DNA from: Comamonadaceae bacterium CD01
GTDB lineage: Bacteria; Pseudomonadota; Gammaproteobacteria; Burkholderiales; Burkholderiaceae_C
Direction of reading: 5' to 3'
NCBI GenBank assembly: GCA_002894305.1
Contig: PGEI01000002.1
Location: forward strand, 1 to 64,000
DNA: 64,000 nt
Shown piece after piece: positions 13,564 to 23,218 of the stretch; positions within the stretch are counted from its first letter, which is position 1; every line of letters starts with the position of its first letter. A model generated the notes under the pieces. That model ran no database searches, was not told where the DNA came from, and saw only the letters and a program-made list of their open reading frames with translations. A program made the position numbers and the translations under genes.

Positions 13564-14496
13564 TCAAAAATAACCGTCGCGCTTGCGTTTTTCCATCGAG
13601 GCTTCGCTCGTCTTGTCGTCCATGCGCGTGGCGCCGCGCTCGCTCACCGCGGTGGCCAGCGTCTCCTGCACGATGGCCGCCGGCGTGTCCGCCAGGCTTG
13701 CGACCGGGCAGGTGCAGGTGATGTCGCCCAGGGTGCGAAAGCGCACGCTCAGTTGCTGCACCTGCTCGCCGTCCCGCGCCGGGGTCAGCGGCGTGACCGG
13801 CACCAGCAGGCCGCGGCGCTCGACGACCTCGCGCTGGTGTGCGTAGTACAGCGAGGGCAGGGCGATGCGCTCGCGCTCGATGTACTGCCACACGTCCAGC
13901 TCGGTCCAGTTGCTGATCGGGAAGACGCGAAAGTGCTCGCCCGGGGCGATGCGGGTGTTGAACAGCGTCCACAGCTCGGGGCGCTGCGCCTTGGGCTGCC
14001 ACTGGCCGAAGCCGTCGCGGTGGCTGAAGATGCGCTCCTTGGCGCGCGCCTTCTCCTCGTCGCGGCGCGCGCCGCCGATCAGCGCGTCAAAGCGCAGCTC
14101 CTCGACGGCTTCGAGCAGCGTGACCGACTGGTGGGCGTTGCGCGGCTCGTCCTCGCGCGCCAGGCGCACCGTGCCGCGCGCCATCGAGTCCTCGACGCTG
14201 CGCACGATCAGCTCGGCGCCCAGCTCGGCGGCGCGCCGGTCGCGAAAGGCCAGCACTTCGGGGAAGTTGTGGCCGGTGTCGATCATCAGCAGCGGAAACG
14301 GCAGGCGGCCGGCGCCAAAGGCCTTTTCGGCGCAGCGCAGCATGACGAGCGAGTCCTTGCCGCCGGAGAACAGCAGTGCCGGGCGCTCGAAGCTGGCGGC
14401 GACCTCGCGCAGGATGAAGATGGTCTCTTCCTCCAGCGCGTCCAGGTGGTGGTTGCTGACGGTGGCCAGCAGATGGGGCTCGGTGCGGGCGTTCAT
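13564..14496 (-). CDS. cysD: Sulfate adenylyltransferase small subunit, CysD
   Basis: A 310-residue ATP pyrophosphatase-fold enzyme that adenylates sulfate with CysN. The PP-loop SGGKDSL is at residues 44-50, and the family's DTGHNFPEVLAFRD, KERIFSHRDGFGQW, WTELDVWQYI and C-terminal EASMEKRKRDGYF are all present; length fits the family (about 300-310). The ATG at 14496 overlaps a TGA belonging to a displaced remnant of the cysH 3' end, which suggests that cysH and cysD were once coupled by an ATGA junction that has since been separated by about 115 bases. Confidence 0.95.
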   Translation of the reverse strand: MNARTEPHLLATVSNHHLDALEEETIFILREVAASFERPALLFSGGKDSLVMLRCAEKAFGAGRLPFPLLMIDTGHNFPEVLAFRDRRAAELGAELIVRSVEDSMARGTVRLAREDEPRNAHQSVTLLEAVEELRFDALIGGARRDEEKARAKERIFSHRDGFGQWQPKAQRPELWTLFNTRIAPGEHFRVFPISNWTELDVWQYIERERIALPSLYYAHQREVVERRGLLVPVTPLTPARDGEQVQQLSVRFRTLGDITCTCPVASLADTPAAIVQETLATAVSERGATRMDDKTSEASMEKRKRDGYF

Positions 14497-14611
14497 AAAG
14501 TGTTGTCCGTGATCGATGGCGAAGGTGTGGCTGCGGCATGTGCCTGCGGCTTGGCTTGCCGCTTGACGTGCAAGCCGCATTCGCGAAGGTTGTTGGTTTG
14601 GCTGCGGCCGG
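14493..14611 (-). pseudogene. Remnant second copy of the cysH 3' end
   Basis: Between the cysH stop and cysD lies a sequence that translates as TNNLRECGLHVKR and then a 21-residue tail ending in TDNTL before a TGA that overlaps the cysD start (ATGA). The catalytic-Cys motif ECGLHVKR is thus present a second time, in a different frame (offset 2) from the working cysH. It has no ribosome site or start of its own. I read it as the ancestral cysH tail pushed out of frame by a duplication or recombination. Confidence 0.65.
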
Positions 14612-14748
14612 TCACTGCGTGCCCTTCACGCCGCCTGCGGCGGCATGAGCCTGCGCCGAAACAATGCCCTCGGTCGCTGCGCTGCGCGCATCGCCTGCGC
14701 CTTGCGGCGCCGAACGCCGCTTGACGTGCAAGCCGCATTCGCGAAGGT
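14558..14748. repeat. 33-bp direct repeat, copies 158 bp apart
   Basis: The same 33 bases occur at 14558-14590 and 14716-14748 in direct orientation (each begins GCCGCTTGACGTGCAAGCCG). The right copy encodes the RECGLHVKR motif inside cysH and the left copy is in the cysH-cysD gap. Flanks diverge at DNA level but keep protein-level similarity (ENND versus TNN before LRECGLHVKR), which suggests an old duplication or recombination between related alleles. Confidence 0.85.
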
Positions 14749-15460
14749 CATTGTTTTCCCACCACCAGCGGCCTGAGCGGGGGTCTTCGCCCAGCGTGAC
14801 CGGGCGGGTGCAGGGGGCGCAGCCGATGCTGGGGTAGAACTGGTCGTGCAGCGGGTTGGTGTCCACCTTGTGCCCGGCCACGTAGTGCCAGACGTCGCCC
14901 TGCGTCCAGTGCGCCAGCGGGTTGAACTTGGTGCGCGCCTCGCTGGTGTCGACCAGGGGCGCGGCGCCGCGTGCGGTGGACTGCTCGCGGCGCAGGCCGG
15001 TGATCCAGCCCTTCTTGCCGTCGAGCGCGCGCGCCAGCGGCTCCATCTTGCGGATGTCGCAGCACAGGTGGCGCAGTTGCACGCTTTCGTAGAACGCGTC
15101 CTGGCCGTGCGTGCGGATGTAGTCGCGCACCGCGTCGGGGCGGGGGTGGTAGACGGTGACCTGCACGCCGTCCTGCGCCTGCAGGCGTTCGAGCAGCGCC
15201 AGCGTCTCGGTGTGCAGCCGCCCGGTATCGAGCACGAAGACGGGGATCTGCAGACCCAGCTGCTGCGCGATGTGGGTGATCACCATGTCTTCCACGCCCA
15301 GGCTGTTGGCCTGCACGACGGTGCCCAGCGCCGCGGCCTGGCGCAGCGTGTCCTGGGCTTGCTGCAGTTTGCGGCCGTAGTCGCTGCTGGCCTTGGCAAA
15401 CAGCGCAACAGCCGAGATCTGCACCAGGCGGTCGAGCGTGCTGGCAAAGGCGGCGTTCAT
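14612..15460 (-). CDS. cysH: Adenylylsulfate (APS) reductase, CysH family
   Basis: A 282-residue reductase making sulfite from APS with thioredoxin or glutathione electrons. Paired cysteines Cys133-Cys134 (HLCCDIRKMEPL) and Cys214/Cys217 (IGCAPCTRP) should bind a 4Fe-4S cluster, the mark of the APS-reducing type, and Cys242 in RECGLH is the catalytic cysteine. The PP-loop-derived segment is ANSLGVEDMV. The start at 15460 overlaps the DUF934 stop (ATGA). After Cys242 the protein has an extra 40-residue Ala/Gly-rich tail, probably produced by a frame change at the duplicated 3' end. Confidence 0.92.
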   Translation of the reverse strand: MNAAFASTLDRLVQISAVALFAKASSDYGRKLQQAQDTLRQAAALGTVVQANSLGVEDMVITHIAQQLGLQIPVFVLDTGRLHTETLALLERLQAQDGVQVTVYHPRPDAVRDYIRTHGQDAFYESVQLRHLCCDIRKMEPLARALDGKKGWITGLRREQSTARGAAPLVDTSEARTKFNPLAHWTQGDVWHYVAGHKVDTNPLHDQFYPSIGCAPCTRPVTLGEDPRSGRWWWENNDLRECGLHVKRRSAPQGAGDARSAATEGIVSAQAHAAAGGVKGTQ

Positions 15461-15876
15461 GCCGCCTCCCACAGCGCGGCCTCGGCTGCCTGGCGGGCGA
15501 ACAGCGGGCGCGGCTCGCTCACGTCGCCCTGGTAGAAGCTGGCGTAGCGCGCAAACTGGCGCTGCGCGGCACTGGCCTGAACGCCCTCGGCGAGCACCGC
15601 GCTGGAGAAGCCGCTGCGCTGCATGTGCACCAGCTGGTCGATCAGCACGTCACCGGTGGCGCGGATGTCGCCGGCGAAGTGGTAGCGCCGGCGCAGCAGC
15701 ACGGCCTGGGTGTAGGCGCGCCCGTCGGTGAACTTGGGGAAGTGCAGCTCGACGCGCTGCACGCCGTCCAGCGCGCCGCTGGCCACCAGCTCGGCGATGT
15801 CCGCGTCGTTGGCGATCGGCAGGGTGTGTGGTGCGTCCGGCTCGGCGCTGACTTCGTCGTTGGCGATGATGTGCAT
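15457..15876 (-). CDS. DUF934 protein of the sulfite reductase cluster
   Basis: A 139-residue cytoplasmic protein with the DUF934 signature (VELHFPKFTDGRAYTQAVLLRRR, then GDIRATGDVLIDQLVHMQRSGF). DUF934 genes nearly always sit right after cysI-like sulfite reductases in proteobacteria. Its biochemical role is unproven; an electron-transfer or assembly role for a CysI without CysJ has been suggested by context. The ATG at 15876 has GAGAGGAA upstream, 11 bases from the cysI stop; the 3' end overlaps cysH by four bases. Confidence 0.88.
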   Translation of the reverse strand: MHIIANDEVSAEPDAPHTLPIANDADIAELVASGALDGVQRVELHFPKFTDGRAYTQAVLLRRRYHFAGDIRATGDVLIDQLVHMQRSGFSSAVLAEGVQASAAQRQFARYASFYQGDVSEPRPLFARQAAEAALWEAA

Positions 15877-15887
15877 GGCGATTCCTC

Positions 15888-17672
15888 TCAGATTTCCAGG
15901 GCTTCTTCCCGGGGATGGCGTGCGGCGTTGGCCGCTTCCTTGAATGGCTGGTGGCCGATGCGGCGCAGCGCGTCGATGAACGACTCGCCGCTCTCGCGCA
16001 GCTGGCGGTAGGTGGCGAGCAGCGCCTCGACGACGTCGGGCACCTCGGCGGCGGTGAACGCCGGGCCGACGACCTTGCCGCCGACGGCGGGGCCGGACTG
16101 CGTGCTGCCGTCGGCGCCGCCGAGCGTGACCTGGTACCACTCCTTGCCGTCCTTGTCGACGCCGAGCACGCCGATGTGGCCGCTGTGGTGGTGGCCGCAG
16201 CTGTTGATGCAGCCGCTCATGTGCAGGTCGATGGGGCCTATGTCCAGCTGCTCGTCCAGGTCCTGGTAGCGCTCGAGCACGGCTGCCGCGATGTGCAGCG
16301 TGCGCGCGTTGGCCAGCGAGCAGAAGTCGCCGCCGGGGCAGGCGATCATGTCGCTGATCAGGCCGATGTTGGGCGTGGCCAGGCCCAGCTTGTACGCCGC
16401 CTGGTACAGCGCCGGCAGGTCGGCCTCGAACACCCAGGGCAGAAGAAGGTTCTGCTCGTGCGTCAGGCGCGCCTCGCCGGCGGAGAACTGCTCGGCCAGG
16501 TCGGCCAGCGCCTCCATCGTCTGCGCGTCGGCGTCGCCCGGCGCAAAGCCGGGGCGCTTGAAGGACAGCATCACGGTCTTCATGCCCGCCAGCTTGTGGC
16601 CGCGCACGTTCTGCGCCAGCCAGCGCAGGAACAGGGAGCCTTTGGGGTCGATGTTGCTGACCACATTGGCCGGCGCCAGCGGCGGCACGACGAAGTGGCG
16701 CGCCACGCGGTCGAGCTCGGCCTGGGTGATGGTGTGCGGCGCGCCGTCCAGCTCGGTGATTGCCTGGAACTCTTTTTCGACCGCATCGATGAAGGCCTGG
16801 CCCTCGGCCTTGACCAGGATCTTGATGCGCGCCTTCCACTTGTTGTCGCGCCGGCCATAGGCGTTGTAGGTGCGCACGATGGCCTCGATGTAGTTGAGCA
16901 GCTGCGGCCAGGGCAGGAAGTCGCGCACCACGGTGCCGGTGATCGGCGTGCGCCCCATGCCGCCGCCGACCAGCACGGTGAAGCCCGTCTCGCCAGCGTC
17001 GTTCAGCCTGCCTTGCAGGCCGATGTCGTACCAGCGCAGCGCGGCGCGGTCTTCCTGCGCGCCGTTGAACGAGATCTTGAACTTGCGCGGCAGGTAGCTG
17101 AACTCGGGGTGCAGCGAGCTCCATTGGCGGGTGATCTCGGCGAATGGGCGGCAGTCGACGATGCTGTCGGCGGCAATGCCCTCCCAGGCGTCGCAGTTGA
17201 TGTTGCGAATGTCGTTGCCGCTGGTCTGGATGCCGTGCATCTGCACGCTGGCCAGCAGCTCCATCACGTCGGCGGCCTTGGACAGCGGGATCCAGTTGAA
17301 CTGGCAGTTGGTGCGCGTGGTGAAGTGGCCGTAGCCGTAGCGCAGCTTGGGCGCGGCAAGCGTGGCGCCCGGCTGCGACGCTTCCAGCGCGTCCTGCGTG
17401 GCCTGGGCGTGGGCCAGCAGCTCGGGATCGGGCCGGTCGTATTCACGGGCGATGCGCGCGAGCATGCGCAATTGCGTGCTGCTGATCTCGCCATAGGGCA
17501 CGGCGATGCGCGCCATCGGCGCGTAACGCTGGATGTACCAGCCGTTTTGCAGGCGCAGCGGCAGCAGCTGGTCTTCACTCAGCTGGCCCTGCTCCCAGCG
17601 CTGTAGCTGGTCGCGGAATTGCTGGGCACGCAGCGTGACGAACTGCTGGTCGAATTCTGTGTATTGGTACAT
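15888..17672 (-). CDS. cysI: Siroheme sulfite reductase hemoprotein, CysI-like
   Basis: A 594-residue nitrite/sulfite reductase with duplicated ferredoxin-like and siroheme/4Fe-4S domains. Cluster ligands are Cys445 and Cys451 (ACPGGDFC) and Cys488 and Cys492 (SGCINSCG), the last bridging to siroheme. Siroheme contacts include RTNCQFNW near 120-127 and NIDPKG near 340-345. It reduces sulfite to sulfide with six electrons. No flavoprotein CysJ is encoded nearby, so ferredoxin or another carrier is expected. It is the first gene of the sulfate assimilation operon on the minus strand, followed by DUF934, cysH, cysD, cysN and cbiX. Confidence 0.92.
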   Translation of the reverse strand: MYQYTEFDQQFVTLRAQQFRDQLQRWEQGQLSEDQLLPLRLQNGWYIQRYAPMARIAVPYGEISSTQLRMLARIAREYDRPDPELLAHAQATQDALEASQPGATLAAPKLRYGYGHFTTRTNCQFNWIPLSKAADVMELLASVQMHGIQTSGNDIRNINCDAWEGIAADSIVDCRPFAEITRQWSSLHPEFSYLPRKFKISFNGAQEDRAALRWYDIGLQGRLNDAGETGFTVLVGGGMGRTPITGTVVRDFLPWPQLLNYIEAIVRTYNAYGRRDNKWKARIKILVKAEGQAFIDAVEKEFQAITELDGAPHTITQAELDRVARHFVVPPLAPANVVSNIDPKGSLFLRWLAQNVRGHKLAGMKTVMLSFKRPGFAPGDADAQTMEALADLAEQFSAGEARLTHEQNLLLPWVFEADLPALYQAAYKLGLATPNIGLISDMIACPGGDFCSLANARTLHIAAAVLERYQDLDEQLDIGPIDLHMSGCINSCGHHHSGHIGVLGVDKDGKEWYQVTLGGADGSTQSGPAVGGKVVGPAFTAAEVPDVVEALLATYRQLRESGESFIDALRRIGHQPFKEAANAARHPREEALEI

Positions 17673-19492: not shown

Positions 19493-19615
19493 GATCGGTT
19501 CAGTGGGGCTGTGCCGGGGTGCGATGGCGACACGCGGCAAAAATGAAAAGCGGGGCGGCGGCCCCGGCGGTGGGGCATGATTTTACGGTGCCGGGCCCGG
19601 CGTGGGGCGCGCCGG

Positions 19616-19621
19616 TATAAT
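19616..19621 (+). promoter_or_regulatory. -10 element (TATAAT) of the ahcY operon
   Basis: A perfect TATAAT lies 11 bases before the riboswitch aptamer, so transcription should begin near 19627-19630 and include the whole aptamer. No convincing -35 hexamer is seen at 16-18 bases spacing (the area is GC-rich); an upstream G before the hexamer is present. Confidence 0.6.
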
Positions 19622-19632
19622 CCACGGCTTTT

Positions 19633-19730
19633 CCGAGGAGCGTTGCAGCGTCCCCAGTTTCGGCGGGGCGTGAGGCTCGGAACCCATTCTTGCAACGACG
19701 CTCACCCACGCCAGTCCTGTGCGGTGAGCG
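19633..19730 (+). promoter_or_regulatory. S-adenosylhomocysteine (SAH) riboswitch with expression platform
   Basis: The aptamer spans about 19633-19704. CCGAG (19633-19637) pairs with CTCGG (19676-19680) as P1. The next strand GAGCGTTGCA (19638-19647) pairs with TGCAACG and ACGCTC (19691-19703), matching the pseudoknotted fold known for SAH riboswitches upstream of ahcY in beta- and gammaproteobacteria. CGCTCACC (19699-19706) can instead pair with GGTGAGCG (19723-19730), a hairpin exclusive with the aptamer's 3' strand. SAH binding should therefore free the downstream region and turn expression on. The recognition is from the conserved sequence and pairing, not a covariance search. Confidence 0.9.
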
Positions 19731-19787
19731 GTATCTTCCATTTCCCCAGGCGCGTGGTTTTTCCATTCTTCGCAGAAGGACGCCACC

Positions 19788-21215
<1,428 letters not shown>

Positions 21216-21224
21216 GGTACTGCT

Positions 21225-21310
21225 CCCTCCCCCGCTGGGGGAGGGTTGGGGTGGGGGCTGGCGGCGTTGACCGGGCTGGCCCATCCCGGCCTTCCCTCAA
21301 AAGGGGAAGG
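21225..21310. repeat. Intergenic hairpin repeat (C-rich/G-rich pair of stems)
   Basis: Two hairpins lie between ahcY and tlyA: a perfect 9-bp stem CCCTCCCCC/GGGGGAGGG (21225-21233 with 21237-21245) and a 7-bp stem CCTTCCC/GGGAAGG (21290-21296 with 21304-21310). Neither has a T-run. The composition (CCCTCCCCC...GGTTGGGGTGGGGG) looks like the dispersed non-coding repeats common between genes in beta- and gammaproteobacteria. It could partly attenuate transcription into tlyA-metF. Confidence 0.6.
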
Positions 21311-21386
21311 GGTGAATGCAAAACCATGGCTGCTTGTGCTTGCTGGACAAGCGCTGCGGCCCATTTGATTCATAAAGGACAGCGCC

Positions 21387-22388
21387 ATGCGCGCCGATGT
21401 TTTCCTGGTCGAAGGCGGCCACGCCGCGACCCGCTCGCAGGCCCAGCGCCTGATTGCCGCCGGCGTGCAGTGGCGCCTGGCCGAGGGCCTGCCCTGGAAC
21501 AAGGTTGCCAAGAACGGCGACGACATTCCCCGGGGCGCCCAGCTGCAGTTGCTCGATGATTCCGAAACCCGCTACCTCTCGCGCGGCGGGCTCAAGCTTG
21601 AAGGTGCGCTGGCCGCCTGCGGCCTGCAAGTGACAGGCCTGCACTGCCTGGATCTGGGCCAGAGCACCGGCGGCTTCACCGACTGCCTGCTGCAGGCGGG
21701 CGCCGCCCAGGTCGTGGGCGTCGATGTCGGCCAGGGCCAGCTGCACGACAGGCTGCGCCAGGACGTGCGCGTGGTTGCTGTCGAAGGGCTGAACGCGCGC
21801 CACCTGACGCTGGACGCGCTGCTCGACGCCTGCGAGGAAGCGCTGGGCGAGCGCGTCGAGCTCGACCCCGACGACAACGACACCCTGCCCGAGGCGCCCT
21901 ATGCATGGATGCGCAACGGCGGCATGGTCGACGACGACTACGACGACAGCCGCGACGCCAAGGAGCACGAGATCGAGGCCTTCAAGGCCGAACGATCCGC
22001 CAAGGCCCAGGCGCGCGCCGAGGGCCAATTGCCCACGCAGCGTCGGCGCCGTGCGGATCGCCGCGAAGTGCAACTGCCTATGGCCTTCGACCTGGTCACC
22101 GGCGACCTGTCCTTCATCTCGCTGACCCTGGTGCTGCCGGCGCTGGTGCCGCTGCTGGCGCCGGGCGGTGACCTGCTGATGCTGGTCAAGCCTCAGTTCG
22201 AGTTGCAGCCGGGCCAGGTCGGCAAGGGCGGCATCGTGCGCGACGCAAGCCTCTACCCGCAGGTCGAGCAGCGCATCCGCAGCGCTTGCGCGCAGTCCGG
22301 CCTGCAGGTCGTCGGCTGGCACGACAGCGCCATTGTTGGCGGCGACGGCAACCGCGAATTCTTCATACACGCCAGGAGGGCCGCATGA
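21387..22388 (+). CDS. tlyA: TlyA-family rRNA 2'-O-methyltransferase with an insertion
   Basis: A 333-residue protein with an N-terminal S4 RNA-binding domain (about 1-60) and an FtsJ-like SAM methyltransferase domain. The SAM site is in LDLGQSTGGFTDCLLQAG (88-105), and FDLVTGDLSFISL (234-246) and MLVKPQFE (265-272) complete the family. TlyA methylates rRNA ribose; many homologues are misnamed hemolysins. About 85 residues (145-230) are inserted between core strands and are highly acidic then basic (VDDDYDDSRDAKEHE), so the protein is longer than the usual 240-275. Its stop overlaps the metF start (ATGA). It makes SAH and is downstream of an SAH riboswitch. Confidence 0.85.
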   Translation: MRADVFLVEGGHAATRSQAQRLIAAGVQWRLAEGLPWNKVAKNGDDIPRGAQLQLLDDSETRYLSRGGLKLEGALAACGLQVTGLHCLDLGQSTGGFTDCLLQAGAAQVVGVDVGQGQLHDRLRQDVRVVAVEGLNARHLTLDALLDACEEALGERVELDPDDNDTLPEAPYAWMRNGGMVDDDYDDSRDAKEHEIEAFKAERSAKAQARAEGQLPTQRRRRADRREVQLPMAFDLVTGDLSFISLTLVLPALVPLLAPGGDLLMLVKPQFELQPGQVGKGGIVRDASLYPQVEQRIRSACAQSGLQVVGWHDSAIVGGDGNREFFIHARRAA

Positions 22389-23218
22389 GCCTGCCGATCA
22401 GTTTCGAGTTCTTTCCCCCCAAGACCCCCGAAGGCGCCGACAAGCTGGGCGTCGTGCGCCAGCAGTTGTATGCGCTTTCGCCGCAGTTCTGCTCGGTCAC
22501 CTATGGCGCCGGCGGCTCCACGCAGGAGGGCACGTTCGCCACGGTGCGCGCCATCCTGGCCGAGGGGCAGGATGGCGCGTCGCACTTCTCGTGCATCGGC
22601 GCCACGCAGGACGGCGTGCGTGCGCAGCTGGCCGAGCTCAAGGCCATGGGCGTCAAGCGCCTGGTGGCGCTGCGCGGCGACCTGCCCAGCGGCTATGGGA
22701 TGGGTGGCCACTTCCAGTACGCCAGCGATCTGGTGGCCTTCATCCGCGCCGAGACCGGCGACGACTTCCACATCGAAGTGGCCGCCTACCCCGAGGTGCA
22801 CCCCCAGGCGCGCTCGGCCGACAGCGACCTGCAGGCCTTTGCCACCAAGGTGCGCGCGGGCGCCAGCTCTGCCATCACCCAGTATTTCTTCAACGCCGAT
22901 GCGTACTTCCGCTTCGTCGACGACGCGCGCCGCCTGGGGCTGGACGTACCGGTCGTGCCCGGCATCATGCCCATCCTGGGCGCCACGCAGCTGCTGCGCT
23001 TCTCAGACGCCTGCGGCGCCGAGGTGCCGCGCTGGATCCGCCTGCGCCTGCAGGGCTTTGGCGATGACGTGGCCAGCATCCGCGCCTTCGGCCTGGACGT
23101 GGTTACCCAGCTGTGCGAGCGCCTGCGCGCGGGCGGTGCGCCGGCGCTGCACTTCTACACGATGAACCAGAGCGGCGCGACGCAGGCGCTGTGCCAGCGC
23201 CTGGGACTGGGCGCGTAG
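22385..23218 (+). CDS. metF: Methylenetetrahydrofolate reductase (NAD(P)H)
   Basis: A 277-residue flavoprotein TIM barrel that reduces 5,10-methylene- to 5-methyltetrahydrofolate, the methyl donor for remaking methionine from homocysteine. It opens with ISFEFFPPKTPEG, with FVTYGAGG-like SVTYGAGGSTQEGT at about 38-51 and LRGDLP at about 97-102; FFNADAYFRFVDDAR and GIMPILG follow. Length is slightly short of E. coli MetF (296). The start overlaps the tlyA stop by four bases. Together with ahcY it forms the SAM-recycling unit. Confidence 0.95.
   Translation: MSLPISFEFFPPKTPEGADKLGVVRQQLYALSPQFCSVTYGAGGSTQEGTFATVRAILAEGQDGASHFSCIGATQDGVRAQLAELKAMGVKRLVALRGDLPSGYGMGGHFQYASDLVAFIRAETGDDFHIEVAAYPEVHPQARSADSDLQAFATKVRAGASSAITQYFFNADAYFRFVDDARRLGLDVPVVPGIMPILGATQLLRFSDACGAEVPRWIRLRLQGFGDDVASIRAFGLDVVTQLCERLRAGGAPALHFYTMNQSGATQALCQRLGLGA

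Follow-up and report, generated by a model that had tools for sequence, protein, structure and literature searches.

Our analysis of the leader of ahcY in the window, i.e. the whole stretch of 64,000 nucleotides analysed here (contig PGEI01000002.1 of Comamonadaceae bacterium CD01, positions 1 to 64,000), makes it rather likely that an SAH riboswitch turns this gene on as SAH rises, probably at translation, and that the signal is transmitted by a relay of competing helices formed by strands a to e. In the absence of SAH, strands b and c would pair with strand d to form hairpin B, and the free strand e would fold onto the Shine-Dalgarno and start-codon region (helix D), so that the gene would be off. 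In the presence of SAH, strand b would be held in the pseudoknot P4 and hairpin B would be blocked; strand c would then pair with strand e (helix C), the ribosome site would be less covered and the gene would be on. We infer that the RNA of the window binds SAH, that the events follow this order and that control acts at translation. The direction of the switch is the one expected, because AhcY removes SAH, a by-product of methylation that acts as an inhibitor.

The aptamer is located at positions 19629-19710 (like all features of the leader and of the genes behind it, on the plus strand) and was delimited by cmscan with alignment. The Rfam scan of the whole window gave a match to RF01057 (SAH) over model positions 1-78 of 78 with 60.6 bits against a gathering cut-off of 37 (E 1.1e-8). 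The original prediction, which was made from the letters alone, had named such a covariance search as a check, and the full-length match bears out its claim that all strands of an SAH riboswitch are present; they sit at the positions it gave. P1 is formed by 19630-19636 with 19677-19683 and an inner stem by 19649-19654 with 19665-19670. Strand a (GAGCGT, 19638-19643), the 5' side of P4, and strand b (ACGCTC, 19698-19703), its 3' side, are exact complements, and sequence and fold assign strand b to hairpin B as well. From the family literature we take P4 to be the family-defining pairing of RF01057; the Rfam model keeps those bases unpaired. Just 5' of the aptamer the sequence reads TATAAT (19616-19621), a possible -10 element; a promoter scan of 19500-21500 that required both hexamers found no site. 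Aptamers of this family were found in 116 of the 120 genomes of the family search, most of them with two copies, and a search of the class gave a match in 41 of 114 genomes. The covariance match, the ahcY gene downstream and the conservation support the identification of the element as an SAH riboswitch and thus as a predicted SAH binder.

The end of the aptamer is separated by 77 bases from ahcY (19788-21215), which encodes adenosylhomocysteinase (TIGR00936, 603.1 bits, cut-off 497.6). Downstream are a TlyA-like (COG1189-type) gene (21387-22388), which is likely part of the same operon, and metF (22382-23218) for methylenetetrahydrofolate reductase (TIGR00676, 307 bits, cut-off 293.7). The genes of SAM-cycle recycling under SAH aptamers are ahcY and metF here and metH at the second copy in this genome. 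The TlyA-like protein of 333 aa stays under both TlyA cut-offs (159.7 bits versus 185.8 for TIGR00478, and 153.8 versus 250); it exceeds the models of 228 and 236 residues by about 100 residues, and a charged insertion is visible by eye. The gap between ahcY and the TlyA-like gene (21216-21386) is GC-rich, contains CTCCCCC...GGGGGAG and resembles a dispersed repeat. Near the SAH-controlled genes, on the minus strand (13564-17672), lie open frames which by eye resemble sulfate-assimilation genes (CysD-like, CysH-like and sulfite-reductase-like). The aptamer and the genes of the regulon are not new, because both have already been reported for Comamonadaceae: in the excerpts of PMC4239095 consulted, SAH riboswitches precede ahcY, metF is found in the ahcY operons of most riboswitch-bearing lineages, and the SAH regulon of Comamonadaceae also includes metH and a COG1189 methyltransferase, for which a common operon with ahcY is reported.

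For the comparison of leaders we used 127 loci from searches of the own genome, the family and the genus, which were assigned by best match to ahcY (83) or metH (44). The family search comprised 120 genomes, nearly one per genus, and its leaders were taken from the better-scoring aptamer matches among the matches listed, a few of which were left out. Leaders were cut from the 3' strand of P4 to the start codon, which resulted in 82 distinct ahcY leaders; L034, a duplicate leader, and L121, in which the aptamer was not found by pattern, were left out, as were the class-search loci L157-L184. A control was provided by exchanging leader strands between species; relatedness may inflate these swap tests for helices C and D alike. 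An additional replication set was drawn from 80 loci of titled records. Two of these loci were skipped because their match begins at the end of the locus or close to it, and 13 because the pattern detected no strand. Removal of four exact repeats of earlier leaders left 61, and the test used the 45 of them with 60-125 bases between P4 and the start codon. These 45 come from Acidovorax, Paracidovorax, Comamonas, Curvibacter, Rhodoferax and others, some of them from other families, and may still include leaders nearly identical to earlier ones.

Hairpin B consists of 19699-19706 paired with 19723-19730 and of 19707-19710 paired with 19718-19721. The segment CGCTCACC (19699-19706) and the anti-P4 strand d, GGTGAGCG (19723-19730), are exact reverse complements of each other, and the inner pairs are contributed by strand c, ACCCACGCC (19704-19712), which folds, swap test and covariation identify as common to hairpin B and helix C. 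Folding of 19690-19740 yielded 12 pairs with -18.9 kcal/mol, including four inner pairs beyond the strands of the original prediction. In 80 of the 82 distinct ahcY leaders strand d is kept and the helix score of B is at least 13, and the mean score is 18.58 compared with 12.42 for shuffled downstream sequence. Hairpin B is thus conserved beyond chance. It shows no covariation of its own in the 82 ahcY leaders (18.58 for own strands, 18.84 for strands swapped between species), because its strands are nearly fixed. The pairing of the last aptamer strand with 19723-19730, as originally proposed, is confirmed by the exact complement, the fold and this conservation. That P4 should exclude the hairpin, the second part of that proposal, is likewise favored by the covariance match, by ahcY downstream and by the conservation, with binding of SAH as a prediction.

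Hairpin B could by itself terminate transcription, as an intrinsic terminator in those relatives that have a T-run and as a weak or Rho-assisted one here; SAH would prevent this through P4, and helices C and D would be secondary. In L024, L029, L081, L108 and L110 a T-run of at least 6 lies within nine bases 3' of d, and long T-runs after d are also present in L190, L193 and L211 of the replication set. One of these leaders, L029, is from a close relative whose AhcY is 94.9% identical. At the five positions next to the 3' end of d the frequency of T is about 0.35-0.41, compared with about 0.2-0.3 further on, and in other Burkholderiales families terminator-like hairpins on the P4 strand can be seen by eye (L146, L147 and L155). 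In the window, however, strand d is followed by GTATCTTCC, which holds no T-run, as had been pointed out in the original prediction; the arrangement of an intrinsic terminator, a GC-rich hairpin B with a U-run immediately behind it, is thus found in some relatives and not in the window. A strict terminator scan of 19500-21500 (loop limit 8, T rule) lists no site there, and of the 80 leaders that have hairpin B only 10 show a T-run of at least 4 within nine bases after d. Moreover, a terminator at B leaves the covariation of helix C unexplained, because strand e is downstream of B. We therefore regard termination at B as the main mode of control as unlikely. Since a T-run follows B in some relatives, the family probably includes an intrinsic-terminator form, and in the relatives with T-runs listed above termination may be added to the relay.

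Helix C consists in the window of six contiguous pairs, 19706-19711 with 19752-19757, with mismatches beyond them (19712:19751 is C-C and 19713:19750 is unpaired). Its 3' strand e, GGCGCGTGG (19749-19757), was defined by the top covarying columns of the 82 leaders and by the swap test, and its end is mostly located 20-33 bases 5' of the ATG. A c:e helix with a score of at least 13 was found between -50 and -16 in 70 of the 82 ahcY leaders, 68 of which also have a B score of at least 13; by this measure about one in seven leaders lacks helix C. The c:e score of the leaders' own strands was 17.43 compared with 13.10 for swapped strands (sd 0.31), a difference reached in 0 of 5000 exchanges. An alignment of the 82 leaders built from sequence only revealed the largest excess of pairing at 19710:19753, 19711:19752 and 19712:19751, with 19708:19755 at rank five and 19713:19750 at rank seven. 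The maximum excess was 0.365 and did not exceed 0.193 in 100 permutations, and at 19710:19753 GC, AU, UA and CG are all seen. When one leader was kept per 75% cluster (68 clusters) the excess was retained, for example with 50 of 68 paired versus 25.9 expected. The 45 further leaders of the replication set showed the same effect (13.72 versus 11.16 swapped, 0/5000); helix C looks weak in some leaders of other families. Pairing of c with e, with covariation, is a family feature of the ahcY leaders.

Strand e and its flank are also complementary to the ribosome site, and this effect is smaller than that of c:e. In the minimum-energy fold of the window, helix D (19750-19795) pairs 19750-19753 with 19792-19795 and 19754-19758 with 19782-19786, in agreement with a peak of complementarity. 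It encloses a local Shine-Dalgarno hairpin (19762-19764 with 19778-19780 and 19766-19769 with 19774-19777, from the same fold), which contains the Shine-Dalgarno region AGAAGGA (19774-19780), read from the sequence 7 bases 5' of the ATG. The complementarity to -15..+3 stays at about 9.4-10.3 along most of the leader and reaches 13.5 at the 3' end of e, where the best complement of the ribosome site is located in 27.7 of 70 leaders compared with 6.1 expected. The D score of the ahcY leaders was 14.15 for own and 12.43 for swapped strands (sd 0.31, 0/5000), and the 45 further leaders gave 12.42 versus 10.78 (0/5000). Helix D covaries far less than helix C does, and its signal may be inflated by relatedness. 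Examples of helix D are CGGGTTCC with GGAGCCCG (L007), GGTTTCC with GGAGACC (L004) and CGTGGTTTTC with GAAAACCATG (L054).

The proposed relay is based on the way in which the strands are used: hairpin B takes b and c for pairing with d, P4 takes b, helix C takes c and e, and helix D takes e. Because b is shared, B excludes P4, and because e is shared, C competes with D. P4 alone does not exclude D, and the relay requires that C wins over D; by favoring P4, SAH would favor C and thereby a freer ribosome site. As strand e is transcribed after d, helix C cannot control termination at B, which argues for a later step, namely translation; for the same reason a role of helix C as antiterminator of B was rejected. 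Control of translation would not be achieved through hairpin B alone, since B ends 57 bases 5' of the ATG, and direct occlusion of the Shine-Dalgarno sequence by strand d is therefore not found in the window. The original prediction had left the choice between translational control and Rho as opposed to intrinsic termination; translation is now the favored part of it, but the hairpin alone would not suffice, and the second strand pair with its link to the ribosome site had been missed. The pairing it described is thus right and its interpretation partly right.

To compare the two states energetically, constrained folds, accessibilities and swaps of the ribosome site were calculated for the 68 leaders with c:e and B scores of at least 13. 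When C was forced and b blocked instead of B being forced, the cost of opening -16..+14 decreased from 12.60 to 6.75 kcal/mol (lower in 67/68; in the window from 12.7 to 8.0), that of -16..+4 from 9.87 to 5.82 kcal/mol (64/68) and that of -14..-3 from 7.36 to 4.36 kcal/mol (62/68). The gain of 4.06 kcal/mol for -16..+4 was 2.58 with ribosome sites swapped between leaders, so that over half of it is not leader-specific; the own site gained more than the swapped one in 49 of 68. Replacement of B by C raised the unpaired fraction of the Shine-Dalgarno sequence in 54 of 68 leaders. In L029 this fraction changed from 0.79 to 0.70, and in the window, where the Shine-Dalgarno sequence lies under the local hairpin in both states, from 0.19 to 0.08. 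With b blocked and no helix forced, the accessibility of the ribosome site changed little, from 0.431 to 0.476, and went up in 49 of 82 leaders. For the window itself these calculated folds support the relay only partly. Taken together, support for the relay is good where ahcY leaders of the family are considered as a whole and only moderate for the copy in the window.

Helix C or the hairpin at the ribosome site might instead be a standing structure which acts on mRNA stability or initiation rate and is not switched by SAH. Strong covariation of C together with weak covariation of D would fit such a structure, as would the small change of the unconstrained ensembles. However, in 54 of the 68 leaders the scored helices B and C overlap in strand c and so cannot both be standing, yet B is present in nearly every leader, and the junction at e is the best partner of the ribosome site far above expectation; we consider a standing structure quite improbable. 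Helix C followed by the TTTTT at 19758-19762 as an intrinsic terminator of the SAH-bound state, with SAH turning the gene off, is very improbable: the T-run does lie directly 3' of e in the window, and 17 of 82 leaders have at least 5 T among the eight bases that follow e, but the other 65 lack this T-rich flank, the six pairs of the stem in the window enclose a loop of 40 bases, and off with SAH is the wrong direction for an SAH hydrolase, the SAH riboswitch family being an on-switch.

The preferred reading, a relay that acts on translation, can be set beside the second SAH aptamer of the same genome (G000:C118:3424-3514, L002), which is located 5' of metH. There the tail of the aptamer, CGCTCACCTGT, pairs with the segment ACAGGTGAGT, which lies a few bases 5' of the ATG, a direct occlusion without a relay. 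Of 42 distinct metH loci, 24 have strand d 1-10 bases 5' of a start codon (25 of 43 before L046 and L101 were recognized as one locus); with d directly at the start codon no relay is needed, and the on-logic is the same as for ahcY. With about even confidence we propose that Comamonadaceae use one aptamer class with two platforms in one genome: at metH the Shine-Dalgarno sequence would be occluded directly, and at ahcY a relay with an additional pair of covarying strands would transmit the SAH signal across about 60 bases to the ribosome site, to which some species would add a terminator. Among 29 loci from a search of the order, most of them outside the family, many leaders look different by eye, and in short leaders (e.g. 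L133) the strand after P4 appears able to pair with the start region. In 5 of 100 order-search genomes (G136, G165, G172, G174 and G215; the loci include G165:C45, G172:C1 and G174:C32) two SAH matches lie no more than about 150 bases apart. By eye, L146 and L147 show a first aptamer whose terminator-like hairpin on the P4 strand is followed by a T-run, and a second aptamer close to ahcY. If the relay is true, one riboswitch class changes its output among relatives between terminator, direct occlusion and relay while the aptamer stays fixed, and the model names base pairs on which a simple reporter test could decide.

The riboswitch itself is ordinary, and the platform of ahcY appears to be a variant of this lineage. 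The novelty of the c:e relay is uncertain; it may have been described earlier, for example in the founding paper on the SAH riboswitch (Wang et al. 2008). The consulted parts of PMC4239095, PMC10907184, PMC4603805, PMC9495176, PMC9495366, PMC2864571 and PMC3766115 do not describe the c:e pair. The Comamonadaceae SAH regulon in PMC4239095 contains the same ahcY, metF and COG1189 gene as well as metH, but the excerpts of that paper describe no switching helices 3' of the SAH aptamer, which are predicted for the leader in the window. Compared with RF01057 the full-length aptamer does not differ, and ahcY and the on-switch logic by P4 are the same. The metH leaders with direct Shine-Dalgarno occlusion share the anti-P4 strand d that pairs with b and c; there d lies directly 5' of the start codon, whereas in the ahcY leader it is far upstream and a further strand pair lies between. 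In the trp and ermC leaders the strands form a chain of pairs 1:2, 2:3 and 3:4, of which only alternating ones can coexist, and the last pair of ermC covers the Shine-Dalgarno sequence. The ahcY leader has a similar strand chain, but here a metabolite aptamer, and not a ribosome on a leader peptide, determines the first pair.
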